DNA of 64,000 nt, from positions 186,001 to 250,000 of the forward strand of contig NZ_VJZZ01000001.1 of the NCBI RefSeq assembly GCF_009659535.1. Direction: 5' to 3'. Each line of letters starts with the position of its first letter. The stretch's first letter is position 1. The translations under genes and the position numbers were made by a program. Positions 15,382 to 25,189 of this stretch are shown here, piece by piece. Under the pieces are notes generated by a model, which was given only the letters and a program-made list of their open reading frames with translations, was not told where the DNA came from and searched no databases. Source of the stretch: Aggregicoccus sp. 17bor-14. Lineage in GTDB: Bacteria; Myxococcota; Myxococcia; Myxococcales; Myxococcaceae.

Positions 15382-18300
15382 CTAGCCCTCTGCAGGGTGC
15401 GCGGCCTCCGTACCGCCCTTGCGCGCGGCGCGGGTGGCGAGCCGGGTCTTCGCCCGATCCGCCACGACGTAGAAGGCAGGCACCACCAGCAGGCTGAGCA
15501 CGGTGGAGACCGAGAGCCCGCCGAGCACCGCGACCGCCATGGGCGCGCGCGTCTCGCTGCCGGCGCCCAGGCCCAGCGCCGCGGGCACGGCGGCCATCAT
15601 GGTGGCGACCGACGTCATCATGATGGGGCGCAGGCGCGTGGGGCCGGCGCGCAGCATCGCGCCGTGCGCATCGAGCCCCTCCTCGCGCGCCTGGGTGGCG
15701 TAGTCCACGAGGATGATCGAGTTCTTCTTCACGATGCCCATCAAGAGCAGCAGGCCGATCATGCTGAAGATGTTGAGCGAGGTGCCGGTGGCCCACAGCG
15801 CGAAGCCCGCACCGGCCACCGAGAGCGGCAGGATGGTGAGCACCGTGACGGGGTGGAGGAACGAGTTGAACTGCGAGGCGAGCACCATGTAGGCGACGAG
15901 GATGCCGAGGCCCAGCGCGAAGAGCAGGCTGCTCATGGACTCGCGGAAGGCCACGCTCGCGCCGCCCAGCACCAGGCGGGTGCCCTCGGGGAGATCCTTG
16001 CCCAGCGCCTCCACGGAGGCCAGGGCCTCGGCCTGGTTCGCTCCCGGCGCCACGTTGGCGAAGATGCTGATCGCGCGCTCGCGGTCCATGCGCGTGATCG
16101 CCTGCAGCGCGGGGCGCTCCTCCTGCGTCACCAGGGCGCTGAGCGGCACCAGGCTGCCGTCGCGCGCGCGGACCTTGAGCGCGGCCAGGTCCTCGGGCCG
16201 CGAGCGCTGGCCGGCGAGCAGGCGCATGCGCACGTCGATGCGGCGCCCGCCGGTGCTGTACTTGCCCACCCGGATGCCGCCGACGAGGGCGTTGATGGTG
16301 GTGGCCACCGTCTCCACGGAGATGCCCAGGTCGGCGGCGCGCGCGCGGTCCGGGGTGATGCGCAGCTCGGGCATGCCGATCTGGTAGTCGGAGTCCACGT
16401 CCACCACCTTGCCGCTCTGCTGCAGCTTGCTCTTGAGCTCGGTGCTGGCCTCCACCAGCCCCGGCCAGTCCGCGCCGCGCACGCTGAACTCCACCGGGTA
16501 GCCGCGCTGCGCGGTGAAGCCGCTCTGCGAGGGGTCCTGCACCGAGGCGCGCAGGCCCGGGTAGCTGTTGAGCTCCTTGCGCAGGAGCTGCTGGAACTCC
16601 GCCTGGCTCATGCGCTGCTCGGGCGGCACCAGCGTCATCATGATGAAGCCGCCGTTCACGCCGCCGCCTCCGCCGCCGCCCGTGACGGCGAAGGTGCGCG
16701 CCACCTCGGGGCGGCTCGCGATGAAGGCGTCCGCGCGGCGCATCAGCGCGTCCGTCTCCTCGAGGCTCGAGCCCACGGCGGTCTGCAGGCGCACGGTGAG
16801 CCGGCTCTGGTCCTGGCTGGGCACGAACTCGCTGGGCAGCGCCTTGAACGCGAGCCCCGCGGCGAGCGTGAGCACGAGGCCCGCCGCGAGCACGCGCCAG
16901 GGGCGCGCGAGGCCCCAGGCGAGAGCGCGCGCGTAGGTGCGCTCCAGGCGCTCGAAGCCGCGGTCCACCGCGAGCCCCACCCGGCCGCGGTGCTCGCGCG
17001 AGGTCTTCACCAGCTGGGCGCAGCGCGCCGGCGCCAGCGTGATGGCCTCCAGGTAGCTCAGGAGCACCGCCACGCACAGCGTGACGCCGAACTGGAGGAA
17101 GAACTTGCCGATGACCCCCTTCATGAAGACGACGGGCAGGAAGATGGCGCACACGGCGAGCGTGGCGGCGAGCGCCGCGAAGGTGATCTCGCCCGTACCC
17201 TCGCGCGCCGCGCGCACGCGGTCCTTCCCCATCTCCGAGTGCCGGTAGATGTTCTCCAGCACCATGATGGCGTCGTCCACGACGATGCCCACGGCGAGCG
17301 CGAGCCCCAAGAGCGTGAACGTGTTGAGGGTGAAGCCGAGGAAGTAGATGACCGCCACCGTGCCCAGGAGCGACATGGGGATGGCGAGCACCACGTTGAG
17401 CGTGCTGGAGAAGGAACCCAGGAACAGCCAGCACACGAGCGCCGTGAGGAGACAGGCGAGCAGCAGCTCGAACTCGATCTCGTGCACGCTCTCCTTGATG
17501 AACTGGGTGGAGTCGAAGTTGATGCCGATCTCCATCCCCTCGGGCGCCGTCTTCTGCAGCTCGGCAATCTGCGCCTTGATGCCCTCGGCCACGGCCACCG
17601 CGTTCGCCCCGCGCTGCTTCTTCACGCCCAGGCCCTGCGCCGGCTGCCCGTTGGCGCGCGAGATGCGGCGCTGGTCCTCGAAGCCGTCCTCCACCAGGGC
17701 CACGTCCGAGAGGTACACGGGCTGCCCGTCCACGTTGCGGATGACGATGTTGCGCAGGGTGCCGAGGTCCAGCGCCTCGCCCATCACGCGCACGTTGACC
17801 TCGCGCCCTTCCGTCTCGATGCGGCCCGCCGGGAGCTCCACGTGCTCGCGCTGCAGCGCCTGCGTCACGTCCGTGACGGTGAGCGCCTTGGCGTCCAGCT
17901 TCTGCGCGTCCACCCAGATGCGCACGTTGCGCTCGAGCGAGCCGCCCAGCTGGATCTCCCCCACCCCGGGCACCGTCTGCAGCTTCTCCTTCACCCGGTA
18001 GCGGGTGAAGTCCGCGATCACCTGCTGGCTGAAGGGGCCGTTGACGCCCAGCCACATGATGGGCTGGTCCTCGGGATTGCTCTTGGAGATGACGGGCGGG
18101 TCCGCGTCCTGCGGGAGCCGGCGCTGCACCTGGCTCACCTTGGCCTGCACGTCCTGCAGCGCGAGGTCCACGTTGCGCGAGAGATCCAGCTCCACCGTGA
18201 TGGAGCCGGAGCCCTGGCGCGCGGAGGACGTGATGCTCTTCACGCCCTCCACCTGCACCACGGCCTCCTCGATCTGCTCGACGAGATCGTTCTCCACCGC

Positions 18301-18471
18301 CTCCGGCGAGGCGCCCTCCCAGCTGACGCTGATGTTGATGGTGGGGAAGTCGATGTCCGGGAACTGGCTGATGCCGATGCGCTGGGCGGCCACCAGTCCG
18401 AAGACGATGGTCGCGCCCATCAGCATCCAGGCGAAGACCGGGCGCTTGATGCAGGTCTCGGTGATGTTCAT
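15382..18471 (-). CDS. RND efflux transporter, inner-membrane pump (AcrB/MexB family)
   Basis: A 1029-residue, 12-helix RND transporter of the hydrophobe/amphiphile efflux family, exporting substrates with proton energy. It begins MNITETCIKRPVFAWMLMGA, typical of the family. The proton-relay aspartates are in GIVVDDAIMVLENIYRH and the conserved lysine in LLLMGIVKKNSIILVDYA. Two large periplasmic loops are present; the second carries an unusual run of seven glycines near residue 597, encoded by a CCG-rich tract at 16661-16682. The ATG overlaps the upstream membrane-fusion gene by four bases. It completes a TolC-MFP-RND operon. Substrates cannot be read from sequence. Confidence 0.96.
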   Translation of the reverse strand: MNITETCIKRPVFAWMLMGATIVFGLVAAQRIGISQFPDIDFPTINISVSWEGASPEAVENDLVEQIEEAVVQVEGVKSITSSARQGSGSITVELDLSRNVDLALQDVQAKVSQVQRRLPQDADPPVISKSNPEDQPIMWLGVNGPFSQQVIADFTRYRVKEKLQTVPGVGEIQLGGSLERNVRIWVDAQKLDAKALTVTDVTQALQREHVELPAGRIETEGREVNVRVMGEALDLGTLRNIVIRNVDGQPVYLSDVALVEDGFEDQRRISRANGQPAQGLGVKKQRGANAVAVAEGIKAQIAELQKTAPEGMEIGINFDSTQFIKESVHEIEFELLLACLLTALVCWLFLGSFSSTLNVVLAIPMSLLGTVAVIYFLGFTLNTFTLLGLALAVGIVVDDAIMVLENIYRHSEMGKDRVRAAREGTGEITFAALAATLAVCAIFLPVVFMKGVIGKFFLQFGVTLCVAVLLSYLEAITLAPARCAQLVKTSREHRGRVGLAVDRGFERLERTYARALAWGLARPWRVLAAGLVLTLAAGLAFKALPSEFVPSQDQSRLTVRLQTAVGSSLEETDALMRRADAFIASRPEVARTFAVTGGGGGGGVNGGFIMMTLVPPEQRMSQAEFQQLLRKELNSYPGLRASVQDPSQSGFTAQRGYPVEFSVRGADWPGLVEASTELKSKLQQSGKVVDVDSDYQIGMPELRITPDRARAADLGISVETVATTINALVGGIRVGKYSTGGRRIDVRMRLLAGQRSRPEDLAALKVRARDGSLVPLSALVTQEERPALQAITRMDRERAISIFANVAPGANQAEALASVEALGKDLPEGTRLVLGGASVAFRESMSSLLFALGLGILVAYMVLASQFNSFLHPVTVLTILPLSVAGAGFALWATGTSLNIFSMIGLLLLMGIVKKNSIILVDYATQAREEGLDAHGAMLRAGPTRLRPIMMTSVATMMAAVPAALGLGAGSETRAPMAVAVLGGLSVSTVLSLLVVPAFYVVADRAKTRLATRAARKGGTEAAHPAEG

Positions 18472-19697
18472 CGCGCTGCGCCTCCTCCGGCATCCCGGCC
18501 GCCGGCGCCCTGCGCCTCCGGCTCCGTGCCCGGCTCGCCGCGCACGGGCGTCTTCGGGGCGGCGCTGATGCGCACCGGCGCCCCCTCGCGCAGCGCCTCC
18601 GCGCCACGCACCACCAGCTGCTCGCCCACCTTCAGGCCCTGGCGCACCTCCACCAGGCCTCCCGTGGTGCGCAGGCCCAGCTCCACCACGCGCTCGTGCG
18701 CCTTGCCCCCCTCCACCACGTAGGCGAGGAAGCCGCGCTCGCTGGGGCGCACCGCGGTCTGCGGGATGACGGGCGCGTTGCTCGCGCTGCCCACCGGCAC
18801 CGTCACCGTGGCGAAGGCGCCGGGGCGAAGCTGCCGCGCGCCCTCGCCCGTCACCTCGCCCGTCACCGCCACCATGCGGCTGTTCGGGTCCGCGCTCGCC
18901 GCCACGTAGGTGAGCTTCGCGCTGAAGGTGTCGGCCGCGTCGCGCGTGGTGAAGCGCGCGGTGAGGCCGGGCTTGAGCCGCGCGGCCTCGCCCTCCGGCA
19001 CGGTGAAGCGCAAGAGCAGCGGGTCTCGCTGCAGGAGCGTGGCGAGCACCGTGCCGGGCTGCACGTACTGGCCGGTCTGCACGTTGCGGCTCTGCAGGGT
19101 GCCGTCCATGGGCGCGCGCACGTAGGCGTCGCGCAGGTTGAGCTCGGCCTGGTCGAGCGCGGCCTTCGCGGCGCTCACCTGGGCCGCGGCCGAGCGCGCG
19201 CGGGTGCGGAAGCTCTCGATCTCCTCGGCCGGCAGGAGGCCCGGGCTCTTCTGGTTCACCGCCTCGCGGCGCGCGAAGCCCGCCTCCGCGTCCGCCTGCT
19301 CGGCGCGCGCGCGCTCCACCGCGGCCTTCGCGGAGGTGACGGCGAGCGCATAGCGGCTGGGCTCGATCTCGGCGAGCACCGTGCCCTTCTTCACGTCCTC
19401 GCCCTCGCGAAAGCGCACCCGGTCCAGCGCGCCCGCCACCCGCGCGGTGATCTGCACGCGCTCGAAGGCCTCCACCGCGCCCACCGCGTGGATCGCGTAC
19501 TCCACGTCCTGCGCCTGCACCGGCGCGACCTCGACCGGGAACTGCATCGCGCCGCGGCCACCGCCGGGGCCCCCGCCGCCCTTGCCCTTGCCGGCGGCAG
19601 GGCCTGCGCCCTCCTCCTGCCCCTTGTTGCAGGCACCCAGCGCACCCACGGCGCCGAGCGAGAGGGCCACCCACAGGACTGCCTTCACCGGTCTCAT
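18468..19697 (-). CDS. RND periplasmic adaptor (membrane fusion protein), predicted lipoprotein
   Basis: A 409-residue HlyD/AcrA-type adaptor joining the RND pump to a TolC channel. MRPVKAVLWVALSLGAVGALGAC ends in a lipobox (LGAC), so it should be lipid-anchored. A Gly/Lys-rich stretch with GKGKGGGGPGGG follows. The lipoyl half-motif VAGALDRVRFREGEDVKKGTVLAEIE, an alpha-helical hairpin around 110-165, the second half-motif NLRDAYVRAPMDGTLQSRNVQTGQYVQPG and beta-barrel segments are all in order. The frame opens at 19823, but ATG at 19697 gives the clean signal peptide. The stop overlaps the RND start; the TolC gene ends 4 bases upstream. Confidence 0.93.
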   Translation of the reverse strand: MRPVKAVLWVALSLGAVGALGACNKGQEEGAGPAAGKGKGGGGPGGGRGAMQFPVEVAPVQAQDVEYAIHAVGAVEAFERVQITARVAGALDRVRFREGEDVKKGTVLAEIEPSRYALAVTSAKAAVERARAEQADAEAGFARREAVNQKSPGLLPAEEIESFRTRARSAAAQVSAAKAALDQAELNLRDAYVRAPMDGTLQSRNVQTGQYVQPGTVLATLLQRDPLLLRFTVPEGEAARLKPGLTARFTTRDAADTFSAKLTYVAASADPNSRMVAVTGEVTGEGARQLRPGAFATVTVPVGSASNAPVIPQTAVRPSERGFLAYVVEGGKAHERVVELGLRTTGGLVEVRQGLKVGEQLVVRGAEALREGAPVRISAAPKTPVRGEPGTEPEAQGAGGRDAGGGAAR

Positions 19698-19701
19698 CTC
19701 T

Positions 19702-21048
19702 TCAAGGCTCCTTGCCCAACGCATCCAGCCCCTGCGCCGCCCGCAGATCCAGCAGCGCGAGCCCCAGCCCGAAGCGCGCCCGCGCAAGCGCGACCTCCGC
19801 CTCGAAGAGCCGCAGGTTCGCATCCGACACCGCGAGCGCCGAGGCCAGCCCCTGGCGGTACAGCTCTCCCGTCTCGTCCACGTTGCGCCGCGCCACCTTC
19901 GCCGCGAGCTCGCCCTGCTTCAGGCTCGCGCGCGCCCGGGTGAGCCCGACCTGCGCCTGCGAGAGATCCACCTTCACGCGCCGCAGGCTCGCATCGAGCT
20001 CCAGGCGGCTCGCGCGCGCGAGGGCCGCGCGCTCGCGGCGCTCGGCGTAGCGCTCGCCCCCGTCGAAGAGCGTCCAGGTGAGATCCAGGCTGACGAAGCC
20101 GTCGGTGTGCGCCGCGTTGCCGCCGATGGCGTCCTCGGACCAGCGGTACTGCCCGGAGAAGCCGAGCGAGGGCAGCAGGCGCGCGAGCGGCTCCTGCGCG
20201 TTGGCCTTCAGCGCCTCCATGCGCCAGCGCAGCGCCGCGAGATCCGGCCGCCGGTCCACCGCGTCCTGCACCTGCCCAGCCACGTCTGCGCCCGCGGGAG
20301 CGGCCTGCGCGGCCTCGAGCAGCGCCACCGGCTCGGCAAGCGCGCCCTGCGGCGGCGCGACGAGCAGGTAGCCCAGCTCGAGCACGCTCTGGTCCGCGGA
20401 GCCCCCGGCGTCCGCGGCCTCCACCTCGGCGCTGGCCACCTCGAGCTCCGCCCGGGTGACGTCGTTGGTGCTCGCCAGGCCGCCTTCCGCGCGGGCGCGC
20501 GCGTCCGCGAGGCTCTTCTGCGCGAAGGTGAGCCGCTGCTGCGCGGCGCCCTGCACCTGCTGCGCATTGAGGGTGGCGAGGAAGGCATCCGCGGCCTCGA
20601 AGCCGATGAGCCTGCGGGCCTCGCGCGCCTCGAGGTCCGCCGCGCGGCTGTCCAGCTTCGCCGCGCGGTAGAGGGGAAAGCCGCGCGCATCGAACAGGGT
20701 CATCCGGGCGCTGGCGGCGCTGGAGAGGGCGCTCGCGGCCTGGGTCACCTGCGGCTCGCCGTTCACCACGCGGGTGGTCTCGCGCAGGCGGCGCGTGTAG
20801 GTGCCGGTGAGCGCGAGCTCGGGGAAGAAGAAGGCGCGGGCGCGGCTCACCCGGGCGCCCGCGGCCTGCGCCCGCTCGCCCGCGGCGAGGGAGCGCTCGT
20901 TGCGCTCCTGCGCGAGCGACACCGCCTGCTCGAGCGTGAGCGGGGCGCCGGGCGCGGCCGCGCGGGCCTCCTGGGCGAGCGCACCGGCGGAGCCCGCGAG
21001 GGCGCAGGCCAGCGCGAGGGCGGAGGGCAGACGGGAGGGATGGAGCAT
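19702..21048 (-). CDS. TolC-family outer-membrane efflux protein
   Basis: A 448-residue outer-membrane channel of the TolC/OEP family. A signal peptide (MLHPSRLPSALALACALAGSA...LAQ) precedes two repeats of long coiled-coil helices: the first includes TLEQAVSLAQERN and SRARAFFFPELALTGTY, the second PDLAALRWRMEALKANA, LPSLGFSGQYRW and SLDLTWTLFDGG. The length agrees with the family. ATG at 21048 is preferred; a GTG at 21066 lies in frame but has no ribosome site. First gene of the TolC-MFP-RND operon, divergent from the Mla/Mce operon. Confidence 0.92.
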   Translation of the reverse strand: MLHPSRLPSALALACALAGSAGALAQEARAAAPGAPLTLEQAVSLAQERNERSLAAGERAQAAGARVSRARAFFFPELALTGTYTRRLRETTRVVNGEPQVTQAASALSSAASARMTLFDARGFPLYRAAKLDSRAADLEAREARRLIGFEAADAFLATLNAQQVQGAAQQRLTFAQKSLADARARAEGGLASTNDVTRAELEVASAEVEAADAGGSADQSVLELGYLLVAPPQGALAEPVALLEAAQAAPAGADVAGQVQDAVDRRPDLAALRWRMEALKANAQEPLARLLPSLGFSGQYRWSEDAIGGNAAHTDGFVSLDLTWTLFDGGERYAERRERAALARASRLELDASLRRVKVDLSQAQVGLTRARASLKQGELAAKVARRNVDETGELYRQGLASALAVSDANLRLFEAEVALARARFGLGLALLDLRAAQGLDALGKEP

Positions 21049-21249
21049 GGGCAGAGGCAGGGTCACGGCGGGGCGGCGCCCGGCGCGCCATATAGACGGG
21101 TCAGAGGTGCTGGGCTACCGCATTACCAGCAACAGCGCGGCGCCGGTCCCCGTATCGGGCTCAAGGTGAAAAAGTCGCAGCACGGCGACGCCGGGCGCCC
21201 CAGAATGCGAGCCCGATGGATTTATTCCGCACAGGCGGGGCCTAGGGCC
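21049..21249. promoter_or_regulatory. Divergent promoter region, efflux operon / Mla operon
   Basis: These 201 bases separate the start codons of two envelope operons transcribed in opposite directions and must contain both promoters. The sequence is locally less G+C-rich around CCATATAGACGG (about 21089-21100) and GGATTTATTCCG (about 21216-21227), plausible melting regions. No dyad operator was recognised and no regulator gene is adjacent. Confidence 0.4.
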
Positions 21250-21945
21250 ATGGATCTGCGCGCGACAGAGGTGGAGGTCCTACACGCGGGGCGACGTTCG
21301 CTCGCCGGCGTGAGCACGGCCTTCGCCCCGGGGAGCCGGGCGCTGGTGCTGGGGCGCGCGGGCGCGGGCAAGACGCTGCTGCTGAAGGCGCTGGCGGGCC
21401 TGGTGCGCCCCTCGCGCGGGGCGGTGCGCTGGGACGGCGCAGACGTGGCGCAGATGGGGCCGGCCGAGCGGCGTGAGCGCCAGGCGGGCTTCGGCTTCGT
21501 GTTCCAGACGGACGCGCTCTTCGACTCGATGAGCGTGCTGGACAACGTGCTGCTGCCCCTGCGCCGCCGCCGCGTCCCCGAGGCGCAGGCGCTCGCGCGC
21601 GGGCTGCAGGTGCTCGAGGCGGTGCGCCTGTCGCACGCGGCGCAGACGCTGCCGGAGCTGCTCTCGGGCGGCATGCGCAAGCGCGCGGGGCTCGCGCGCG
21701 CGCTCGCGGCGAGCCCCTCGGTGCTGCTCGCGGACGATCCCTTCGCCGGGCTGGACCCGGGCACTGCGCGCCAGGTCGCCTCCGTGCTGCTCGAGGTCGC
21801 GGGCAGCAGCACCCTGCTGGTGGCCGCGCCCGAGCCTCCGCCGGAGCTGCCCTTCGAGCGCTGGCTGGTGCTGCGCGGCGGAGAGCTGGTACACGACGGC
21901 CCACCGGCGCCGGCCCGGCTCGAGGAAGTGGAGGCAGAACCGTGA
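21250..21945 (+). CDS. MlaF-like ABC ATPase A with degenerate catalytic residues
   Basis: A 231-residue ABC ATPase of the Mla/Mce (MKL) type. Walker A GRAGAGKT is at 35-42, the Q-loop Gln at 86 in VFQTDALFDSMSVLDNV (a phrase very close to MlaF), and an intact signature LSGGM at 138-142. The Walker B segment reads VLLADDPFAGLD, so the catalytic Glu is replaced by Asp163. The H-loop reads LLVAAPEP, with Ala193 where the switch His is expected. Its own ATP site is therefore predicted to hydrolyse poorly, while its signature can serve the partner ATPase encoded at 23455. First gene of a tightly overlapping five-gene operon; the stop overlaps the permease start by four bases. Confidence 0.93.
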   Translation: MDLRATEVEVLHAGRRSLAGVSTAFAPGSRALVLGRAGAGKTLLLKALAGLVRPSRGAVRWDGADVAQMGPAERRERQAGFGFVFQTDALFDSMSVLDNVLLPLRRRRVPEAQALARGLQVLEAVRLSHAAQTLPELLSGGMRKRAGLARALAASPSVLLADDPFAGLDPGTARQVASVLLEVAGSSTLLVAAPEPPPELPFERWLVLRGGELVHDGPPAPARLEEVEAEP

Positions 21946-22718
21946 GGCGCGCGCTGGGCAGGGTGGGCACGCAGGCGCTGCTGGGCGCGCAGGCCGCGGG
22001 AGCGCTCGCGGTGGTGGCGGCGCGCACGGTGCTCGCGCTGCCGCGCCTCGAGCGCCGCGAGCTCGCGCGGGGGCTCGTGGACTTCGGCCACGGCTCGCTG
22101 GGGCTCACGCTGGTGACGGCGGCCATCGCGGGGGCCACGGTGGTGGCCCAGACGGGGCTGTACGTGCAGCGCTTCGGCACCCGCAGCATCCTCGGGTGGG
22201 CCGCGGGCTACGCGGTGCTCTGGGAGTTCGGCCCGCTGCTGCTGGGGCTGCTGATGGCGGCGCGGCTGGGGGCACGCAACGCGGCGGAGCTCGCGTCGCT
22301 CTCCACCGGCGGGCAGCTGGAGGGCCTGCGCGGCATCTCGCTGGATCCCTTCGCGCTGCTGGTGGCCCCGCGCGTCGTCGCCATGGGGGTGAGCGTGACG
22401 GCGCTCAGCGCGCTGGCCTTCCTGGTCTCGGTGCTCTTCGAGTCGATGGCGGCCCGGCTGCTGCTGGGGCTGCCCCTGCGCAGCTTCTTCCAGAGCTTCG
22501 CGGACATGCTGCGCCCGGTGGACCTGCTGGGCGGGGTGCTGAAGGCGGCGAGCTTCGGGCTCGCGATCGCGCTGGTGTCCACCGCGGTGGGGCTGCGCGC
22601 GCGCGGCGGGGCGCGCGCGGTGGGCCAGGCCGCGGCGAGCGCGGTGGTGCTCAGCTGCGCGGCCATCTTCCTGCTCGACTTCCTCCTCACGCTCGCGCTG
22701 GCGGGGCTCGCGGGATGA
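21942..22718 (+). CDS. MlaE/YrbE-like permease A
   Basis: A 258-residue inner-membrane permease of the MlaE/YrbE family, about five to six helices, which forms the membrane core of MCE phospholipid transporters. The conserved region is EFGPLLLGLLMAARLGARNAAELASL (95-120). The coupling segment that usually reads EQ-x-x-ALE is here TGGQLEGLR (122-130), followed by DPFALLVAPRVVA. GTG start overlapping the ATPase A stop (GTGA). A second, different permease follows at once, so a heterodimeric membrane core is likely, as known for mycobacterial YrbEA/YrbEB. Confidence 0.92.
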   Translation: MRRALGRVGTQALLGAQAAGALAVVAARTVLALPRLERRELARGLVDFGHGSLGLTLVTAAIAGATVVAQTGLYVQRFGTRSILGWAAGYAVLWEFGPLLLGLLMAARLGARNAAELASLSTGGQLEGLRGISLDPFALLVAPRVVAMGVSVTALSALAFLVSVLFESMAARLLLGLPLRSFFQSFADMLRPVDLLGGVLKAASFGLAIALVSTAVGLRARGGARAVGQAAASAVVLSCAAIFLLDFLLTLALAGLAG

Positions 22719-23458
22719 ACCTCCTGCGCCAGGCGGGCTCCCCTGCCCTGCTGCTGCTGCGCACCGTGCGGGCCGCCGCGCGCGAGGGCGTGTCCGCGCG
22801 CGAGTGCCTGCGCCAGCTGCACGAGGTGGGCAGCCGCAGCGCGTGGCTGGTGGTGAGCGGCATGGCCTTCTTCGGCGCGGTGCTCATCACCATCGCCAAC
22901 GGCCAGGCGCGCCGCTTCACCGGCAACCTCGTCATCCTCGGCCCCGCGTACTTCGAGCTGATGGTGCGCGAGTTCGGCCCCGTGGTGTCCGCGCTGCTCA
23001 CGGCGGCGCGCGCGGGCGCCTCGCACGGGGCGGAGCTCTCCACCATGAGCATCCAGGAGCAGGTGGAGGCGCTGGAGATGTCCGCGGGAGATCCGCTCGC
23101 GGACCTGGTGGCGCCGCGCGCCATCGCGGGCGCGCTGGGGGTGCCGCTGCTGTGCATCGTGGGGACCATGGCCGCGTGCACCTCGGCGGTGCTCACGGCC
23201 ACCTGGGCCTTCGGCGTGGACGGGATGGCCTTCGTGGACCCGCGCTTCGTGGACGGGTGGGACGTGCTCGCGGCGCTGCTCAAGTCGGTGGGCTGCGGGC
23301 TCTTCATCCCGGTGGCGGCGGCGAGCGCGGGGCTGCGCGCGCGCGGCGGCGTGGAGGCGGTGGGCGAGGCCACCACGCGCGCGGTGGTGGCCGCGTGCAT
23401 CGGGTGCCTCTTCATCGACTTCGGCGTGGCGCTCGCGTTCCTGCTGGGGGGCGTGTGA
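22715..23458 (+). CDS. MlaE/YrbE-like permease B
   Basis: A 247-residue MlaE/YrbE permease paralogous to the preceding gene. It keeps the canonical segments: EFGPVVSALLTAARAGASHGAEL (86-108) and the coupling motif EQVEALEM at 115-122, followed by DPLADLVAPRAIAG. Membrane segments match the first permease in number and order. The ATG overlaps the upstream stop by four bases (22715-22718), and its own stop overlaps the GTG of ATPase B. The difference in coupling motif between the two permeases parallels the asymmetry of the two ATPases. Confidence 0.92.
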   Translation: MNLLRQAGSPALLLLRTVRAAAREGVSARECLRQLHEVGSRSAWLVVSGMAFFGAVLITIANGQARRFTGNLVILGPAYFELMVREFGPVVSALLTAARAGASHGAELSTMSIQEQVEALEMSAGDPLADLVAPRAIAGALGVPLLCIVGTMAACTSAVLTATWAFGVDGMAFVDPRFVDGWDVLAALLKSVGCGLFIPVAAASAGLRARGGVEAVGEATTRAVVAACIGCLFIDFGVALAFLLGGV

Positions 23459-24183
23459 GCGCCCTGCTCTTTCGCGGCGTCACCAAGGCCTTCGTCCCCG
23501 GGCGCCCCGTGCTCAGCGGGCTCAGCGCGGACGTGTCCACCCGCGACGTCACCTTCGTGGCGGGCGCGAGCGGCTCGGGCAAGAGCGTGCTGTGCCGGCT
23601 CGCGGCGGGGCTCTTGCGCCCGGACGCCGGCGAGGTGGAGCTGTTCGGTGAGCCCGTGCACCGGCTGCCCGAGCGCGCGCTGCGCCGGCTGCGCCAGCGC
23701 GCGCCCTACCTCGTGCAGGGCCCGGCGCTGCTGGACTGGCGCACGCTGAGCGAGAACGCGGCGCTGGCGGACCGCCGCGCGAGCCCCGAGCGCGTGCAGG
23801 AGGCGCTCGGGCGCGTGGGGCTGCGGGAGCTCGGAGACCGGCTGCCCTCGCAGGTGGGCCCGGGCGCCAAGAAGCGCACGGCGATCGCGCGGGCGCTGGT
23901 GCTCGCGCCCGAGTACCTGCTGATGGACGAGCCCACCACGGGGCTGGACCGGGTGGCCACCGCCCAGGTGGAGGAGGTGCTGCACGGCCTCAAGCGCTCG
24001 GGGCTGGGGGCGCTGGTGGTGTCGCACGACTACCGGCTGCTCACGGCGCTCGCCGACCGCGTGCTGGTGGTGGCCGAAGGCCGCAATGCGTTCAGCGGCA
24101 CGCCCGCCGAGTTCCTGGCATCTTCCCTTCCCGAGGTGCGCGCCCTGACCGCGCCCTATCTGGAGACGGCAGCAGATGGATGA
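23455..24183 (+). CDS. MlaF-like ABC ATPase B with degenerate signature motif
   Basis: A 242-residue ABC ATPase. Walker A GASGSGKS (37-44), Q-loop Gln88, Walker B YLLMDEPTTGLD with the catalytic Glu159 and switch His191 in LVVSHDYR are all intact. The signature position reads LPSQVGPGAKKR, so LSGGM is replaced by VGPGA (134-138), losing the signature Ser and a Gly. It is thus the complement of ATPase A: pairing its Walker motifs with the signature of ATPase A gives a complete ATP site, while the other site is degenerate on both sides. GTG start in a GTGA overlap; the 3' end overlaps the MCE gene by eight bases. Confidence 0.93.
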   Translation: MSALLFRGVTKAFVPGRPVLSGLSADVSTRDVTFVAGASGSGKSVLCRLAAGLLRPDAGEVELFGEPVHRLPERALRRLRQRAPYLVQGPALLDWRTLSENAALADRRASPERVQEALGRVGLRELGDRLPSQVGPGAKKRTAIARALVLAPEYLLMDEPTTGLDRVATAQVEEVLHGLKRSGLGALVVSHDYRLLTALADRVLVVAEGRNAFSGTPAEFLASSLPEVRALTAPYLETAADG

Positions 24184-25189
24184 GCGTCGGTTGGAGATCA
24201 AGGTGGGCGCGCTGGTGGTCGCGGCGCTCGCCGGCGTGTTCGGGCTGCTGTACCTGATGGGCGAGCTGTCCCTGTCCTCGGGCGGCGCGCTCAAGGTGGA
24301 CTTCTCGCACACGGGCAACGTGGTGAAGGGGGCGCCGGTGAAGCTGGGCGGCGTGGCGGTGGGGCGCGTGGAGGAGATCCGCCTGCTGCCGGACCGCCGC
24401 GACCCTGCAGGCAACCCTCTGCCCGTACAGATGGCCCTCAGCGTCTCTCCCGAGGCCCTCGCCGCGCTGCGCTCGGACGTGCGCGTGACGGTGGCCACGG
24501 TGGGCCTGCTGGGCGAGCCCTACCTCGAGCTCACCCCGGGCTCCGCGCGCGCCGCGCCCCTTCCGGCGGAGGCCGTGGTGCGCGGCACGGACGCGCCGCG
24601 CCTGGACGTGGTGGCGCTGCAGCTCTCCTCCTTCCTGGACGCCGCGAGCAGCGCCCTCGCCAAGGATCCCGAGGGGCTGATGGGGCTCGCGAGCAACGTG
24701 AGCAACCTGGCGCGGCGCCTCAACGAGATGCTGGGCCAGAACGACGCGGACGTGCGCACCCTGGTGAGCGAGCTGTCCGCCGCCTCCAAGGACCTGCGCG
24801 TGCTCGCCCACGACGCGCGCGTGGCGATGCACCCGGGCGGCTCCGGGGCGCGCCTCCTCGACGACGCGGCCGCGGTCGCGAGCGTGGCCAAGCGCGACCT
24901 GCCTGGCATCTCCGCGTCCGCTGGCCGCACGCTCAACGGGCTCGCCAACATCACCGGGGGCCTCACGCCCGAGGACGGCGAGCGCGTGCGCGCCGCCCTC
25001 CAGAGCTACACGGCCGCCGGGGCACACCTGGAGCAGGTGGCGGCCCGCGCCGATCGCCTCCTCGCGCGCATGGAGGCCGGCGAGGGGACGCTGGGCGCCC
25101 TGCAGAAGGATCCGCAGCTCTACGAGGAGCTCAAGGCCCTGGTCACGGATCTGCGCAAGCACCCGTGGAAGGTGCTCTGGAAGGACTGA
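24176..25189 (+). CDS. MCE-domain substrate-binding protein (MlaD-like)
   Basis: A 337-residue MlaD-like protein. A short cytoplasmic start MDERRLEIKVG is followed by a membrane anchor (ALVVAALAGVFGLLYLMGEL) and one MCE domain (about 35-125, with VKGAPVKLGGVAVGRVEEI). A long helical C-terminal region (about 140-337) with heptad-like patterns follows; E. coli MlaD is about 183 residues, so this tail is an extension of the kind that builds a needle or tunnel in longer MCE proteins. It ends the operon. No MlaB, MlaC or MlaA gene is in the window. Confidence 0.93.
   Translation: MDERRLEIKVGALVVAALAGVFGLLYLMGELSLSSGGALKVDFSHTGNVVKGAPVKLGGVAVGRVEEIRLLPDRRDPAGNPLPVQMALSVSPEALAALRSDVRVTVATVGLLGEPYLELTPGSARAAPLPAEAVVRGTDAPRLDVVALQLSSFLDAASSALAKDPEGLMGLASNVSNLARRLNEMLGQNDADVRTLVSELSAASKDLRVLAHDARVAMHPGGSGARLLDDAAAVASVAKRDLPGISASAGRTLNGLANITGGLTPEDGERVRAALQSYTAAGAHLEQVAARADRLLARMEAGEGTLGALQKDPQLYEELKALVTDLRKHPWKVLWKD

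Follow-up and report, generated by a model that had tools for sequence, protein, structure and literature searches.

The five-gene operon at positions 21250–25189 (+) of the window, by which we mean the whole 64,000-nucleotide stretch of the Aggregicoccus sp. 17bor-14 genome analyzed here, encodes two different ATPases, ATPase A and ATPase B, that very probably work only as an A:B heterodimer, in which one ATP-binding site is hydrolytic and the other degenerate. Comparison of relatives shows that each ATPase conserves only what its partner needs, throughout the phylum Myxococcota and also where the two genes are unlinked.

Reading frames and Pfam matches (PF00005 twice, PF02405 twice and PF02470 once) bear out the gene set and order proposed in the first-pass annotation. 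In order, the overlapping genes encode ATPase A (21250–21945, 231 aa; PF00005, E 3.9e-28), permease A (21942–22718; PF02405, E 4e-48), permease B (22715–23458; PF02405, E 2e-45), ATPase B (23455–24183, 242 aa, GTG start; PF00005, E 3e-24) and an MCE protein (24176–25189, 337 aa; PF02470, E 3e-13), all on the + strand. Both ATPases are of the MlaF/MCE type, and both permeases belong to the MlaE family, with the coupling regions that had been read for them, TGGQLEGLR in permease A and EQVEALEM in permease B. The junctions are GTGA at 21942, ATGA at 22715, GTGA at 23455 and an 8-base overlap at 24176; these end-to-start overlaps make it likely that translation of the five genes is coupled. The MCE protein consists of an N-terminal TM helix, a single MCE domain and a long helical C-terminal part. 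Its model is good for the MCE domain and of low confidence for the helical part; outside the domain it is too weak a basis for proposing a periplasmic tube, an idea we set aside. The operon itself contains no MlaB, MlaC or MlaA gene, and its single MCE gene is followed on the 3′ side by a gene for a beta-lactamase-fold protein. Divergent from the operon, genes for an RND-type pump, a HlyD-type adaptor and a TolC-type outer membrane protein occupy window positions 15382–21066 (−).

Two PF02405 permeases well above cut-off, a PF02470 protein and an MlaF-type ATPase are what is found in an MCE lipid ABC transporter, and lipid transport between membranes is the predicted function of the operon. 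Against the NCBIfam MlaF equivalog, both ATPases nevertheless score far short of the cut-off or have no listed match. The host genome (6.9 Mb, 38 contigs) encodes five MlaE permeases, namely the operon pair and three single ones, and the ATPases beside the three single permeases (L001–L003) have all motifs intact.

Each site of an ABC dimer combines the Walker motifs, Q-loop and H-loop of one subunit with the signature of the other (PMC7756269). In ATPase A, the Walker A motif (GRAGAGKT, residues 35–42; 21352–21375, +), the Q-loop (Q86) and the signature (LSGGM, residues 138–142; 21661–21675, +) are intact, while Asp163 of the Walker B sequence D162-D163-P replaces the catalytic Glu (21736–21738, +). 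The sequence and its relatives agree with the earlier reading of LSGGM and Asp163. The reported absence of the switch His also stands, with the correction that the equivalent residue is Pro194 (21829–21831, +) in an alignment of 300 sequences and not Ala193; relatives read VSND, VSSD or AAPE in this segment. ATPase B, numbered with the GTG start as residue 1, has the motifs previously ascribed to it: an intact Walker A (GASGSGKS), the catalytic Glu159 (D158-E159-P; 23929–23931, +), the switch His191 (S190-H191; 24025–24027, +), and VGPGA instead of LSGGM at residues 134–138 (23854–23868, +). In the ATPase B model (pLDDT 95.5; best Foldseek match, E. coli MlaF), the helix behind the signature begins at Pro136. 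Since this residue has no backbone NH and the signature Ser is replaced by Gly, the usual gamma-phosphate contacts should be weakened, judging from established ABC structures.

Distant operons were collected by a permease A profile search of 195 genomes and a scan of named contigs, and counts were made after removal of duplicates, leaving 106 A-type, 102 B-type and 88 other ATPases. SGG is present in all 106 A-type sequences, of which 88 have lost the Glu, 94 the His and 105 at least one of the two, and GK[ST] is found in every A-type row listed in the alignment. Conversely, Glu and His are both intact in 102/102 B-type sequences and SGG is present in 0/102. The 88 comparison sequences, MCE-type or general ABC ATPases of which most adjoin a single MlaE gene and which come from many phyla besides Myxococcota, retain SGG and His in 88/88 and Glu in 82/88, so that 82 have all motifs. 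Set against these, a motif split in 105/106 A-type and 102/102 B-type sequences is beyond chance. The six Glu exceptions in the comparison set are all DSP (Glu to Ser) ATPases of Acidobacteriota beside a single MlaE (L227, L237, L249, L253, L254 and L273); they keep LSGGM and His, and in a homodimer Ser would occupy both sites.

Co-occurring losses in the two ATPases, for which an alignment of relatives had been proposed as a check, are thus found across Myxococcota, and they all fall on one composite site. Distant A-type sequences are variously DEP without His, DDP with His, DGP with His, or have lost both residues; distant B-type sequences are always DEP with His and never SGG. Across the B-type set the signature varies widely, with the forms GPG, GAG, GDG, GQG, SAG and VAPSE. 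An ATPase with all motifs, which would speak against the pair, never occurs among the B-type sequences and occurs once among the A-type, in G164 (L119), where Glu and His are both intact.

These counts bear on a different division of labor, in which B would drive transport, either as B2 or paired with an ordinary MlaF, and a catalytically dead A would serve in regulation or assembly without entering the ATP sandwich. The same genomes do contain ordinary MlaF ATPases, and in G191 (100% complete) a genome search found no degenerate A to accompany a B with the signature LGPGQ (L131). A scaffold, however, would not need the Walker A and SGG motifs kept in every A row, and B2 by itself would have no canonical signature; we regard this arrangement as improbable.

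Within the family of the host, permease A (58–75% identity) is found in about 73 of 96 genomes, and ATPase A and ATPase B in 72/96 each. Both ATPases are present in 69 genomes and neither in 21 (Fisher p about 5e-15, with shared ancestry ignored). The six discordant genomes, with A alone in G018, G022 and G083 and B alone in G020, G047 and G094, mostly reflect loci at contig ends; in G047 (78% complete) there is room for A at the locus, yet no A was found there. In every readable operon of the family, A is DDP without His and B is DEP with His and a GPG-type signature, except for VSPAL in L036; in L008 a His occupies the aligned position of A, and Walker B is still DDP. The motif split survives insertions between the operon genes. 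Two genera carry insertions with unrelated reading frames: 1.4–9.5 kb between the permeases in g2 (L144, L147, L148 and L154), and 2–17 kb between permease B and ATPase B in g3 (L047, L145 and L146).

About a dozen genomes have A and B apart from each other, and the complementary lesions are kept there too. Seven loci have the permeases and B with no adjoining A, and six of the genomes concerned (G105, G187, G189, G190, G193 and G194) encode elsewhere a solo A-type ATPase with intact SGG and the His replaced by Asn or Thr (SND/SNE/STD). No MlaE gene lies within the stretch read around these six solo genes, and the one in G187 sits among housekeeping genes. G195 (Sandaracinaceae) has a solo A with His replaced by Ser (SSD), G196 a solo A with DDP and the His kept, and in G158–G160 both ATPases are solo with lesions that are still complementary. 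We considered whether a B with no neighboring A refutes the pair and rejected this, since a solo degenerate A is found in all such genomes but G191.

Other MlaF-like ATPases with altered motifs were seen outside these pairs. L306 in G195 is DEP and reads VATQN (His to Gln). In G077 (L314:3185–4075) and five sister genomes of genus g19, an orphan ATPase has an intact LSGGM, DDP and a His to Pro change (VITPDV); it has no permease nearby and resembles ordinary MlaF most closely, more than it does clade A.

The family-wide and unlinked pairs also weigh on the notion of two separate transporters, with A2 on one permease pair, B2 on the other and the weak motifs tolerated. Two permeases and two ATPases would be enough for this, and the genes are separable, A being unlinked in several genomes. 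A2, however, would have both sites devoid of Glu and His, yet its SGG is invariant, and B2 would have both sites devoid of a signature, yet its Glu and His are invariant; moreover, the operon has only one MCE gene, and in the host's family A and B are missing together. Complementary halves conserved across the phylum and in unlinked genes are not predicted by two homodimers, which we consider very unlikely, nor by an operon decaying under relaxed selection with meaningless lesions, a view hardly credible when, for all that several genera lack the operon altogether, the frames are open in most of the family, the complementary halves are strictly conserved over the whole phylum and the other composite site shows no loss at all. 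Nothing in searches of viral contigs (remote ABC ATPases only) and plasmids (one 39% match, in Hymenobacter) points to an origin in a mobile element.

The heterodimeric, asymmetric pair proposed in the first-pass annotation is supported by the motif split, and further by co-occurrence and co-absence in the family, by the unlinked complementary pairs and by the gene overlaps. Counted against a physical A:B heterodimer are the intact A of G164 and the B of G191 and G047 for which no A was found. Some lineages, in addition, have lost the Glu alone, with a change to Asp and the His kept, and Asp at the catalytic position can still permit slow hydrolysis (PMC7756269). Many of the genomes behind these comparisons are draft MAGs.

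In a tree built with the motif columns removed (quick search, no bootstrap, midpoint root and otherwise unrooted), the A-type sequences, including ATPase A of the operon, form one clade (SH-aLRT 95) and the B-type sequences another (99). In this unrooted tree, the A clade is placed next to MlaF-type ATPases, with B as the sister side. The minimum number of changes is one for the signature, between B and the rest, against at least six for Glu and at least three for His, all within A, and zero for Glu and His within B. The B-type rows were initially sorted by their lost signature, which is circular at the start; gene position behind permease B and the motif-free tree yield the same B set, so this circularity is limited. 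Independent loss of the motifs had been named as an outcome that would contradict the pair. The losses in A are indeed stepwise and repeated, but they always fall on the same composite site, which favors a shared site over two independent decays.

On balance, and with some reserve, we favor an evolutionary reading in which the ATPase of an MCE lipid transporter lineage spanning the phylum is obligately heteromeric and one of its sites never hydrolyzes ATP. In this reading the dead partner can be encoded elsewhere in the genome, and the signature of B decayed first, followed several times by the Glu and/or His of A. Such an order is expected once a site no longer serves hydrolysis. If this is right, relatives retain the intermediates (signature lost with A intact, Glu only, His only, and both), so that the order of decay can be read directly.

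How the A:B heterodimer might work can be sketched from the motifs. The complex would be a lipid ABC transporter of the MCE type in the inner membrane, built around a heteromeric core of permeases A and B and ATPases A and B, on which the single MCE protein would form a ring, presumably a hexamer by analogy with MlaD. In the closed dimer, Walker A/B, Glu159 and His191 of B would face the LSGGM of A at the hydrolytic site. At the degenerate site, Walker A and Asp163 of A, with no His, would face the VGPGA of B; because Walker A of A is intact, this site should still bind ATP, with slow or no hydrolysis. Transport would then proceed at about one hydrolysis per cycle while the degenerate site keeps A and B associated, a mechanism that has been proposed for heterodimeric exporters. 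If so, the asymmetry would tie every lipid step to a single hydrolysis, and permeases A and B would have different jobs. There is debate about which way MCE transport runs and how it uses energy; if confirmed, a complex in which just one ATP site is live would be a clean tool for this question.

Our searches of the open-access literature turned up no description of an asymmetric ATPase pair in an MCE system, and the MCE and Mla terms looked for are absent from a publication on Myxococcus ABC transporter mutants. The closest systems each share part of the arrangement. Similar to MlaFEDB of E. coli, Acinetobacter and Pseudomonas, the operon encodes MlaE-type permeases, MlaF-type ATPases and an MCE protein. 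MlaF, however, carries LSGGM, forms a homodimer and is partnered by MlaB (PMC7367683), whereas the operon here has two permeases and two complementary ATPases, has no MlaB or MlaC gene, and provides no single subunit with all motifs, A being devoid of Glu and His and B of the signature. Mycobacterial Mce1 (YrbE1A/B, MceG) likewise has two different MlaE-type permeases side by side, but combines them with one ATPase and six MCE proteins, in contrast to the two ATPases and one MCE gene found here; MceG forms a homodimer and carries a long C-terminal extension (PMC9882608).

The degenerate-site layout itself is known from type I exporters and from ABCG5/ABCG8, and the operon shares two of its features, namely two different, co-occurring ATPases and lesions confined to one composite site. 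Among human ABC proteins, the signature is altered in all degenerate sites, Glu to Asp is the next commonest change, and H-loop deviations often accompany these (PMC7756269), a pattern that matches the A and B lesions and that we count in favor of the heterodimer. In TAP1/2, TM287/288, BmrCD and CFTR, too, all lesions (an altered signature, a Glu changed to Asp or Ser, and an H-loop change) fall on a single composite site (PMC7756269), but in these type I exporters ATPase and membrane domains are fused, in contrast to the separate MlaE-type permeases and MCE protein of the operon. The ABCG5/ABCG8 sterol transporter is also a lipid-moving heterodimer with one degenerate site, in which the signature and the Walker A Lys are altered (PMC7756269), whereas Walker A is intact here. 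If the A:B heterodimer is real, degenerate-site asymmetry of the kind seen in these transporters would have arisen in the MCE transporter family as well.
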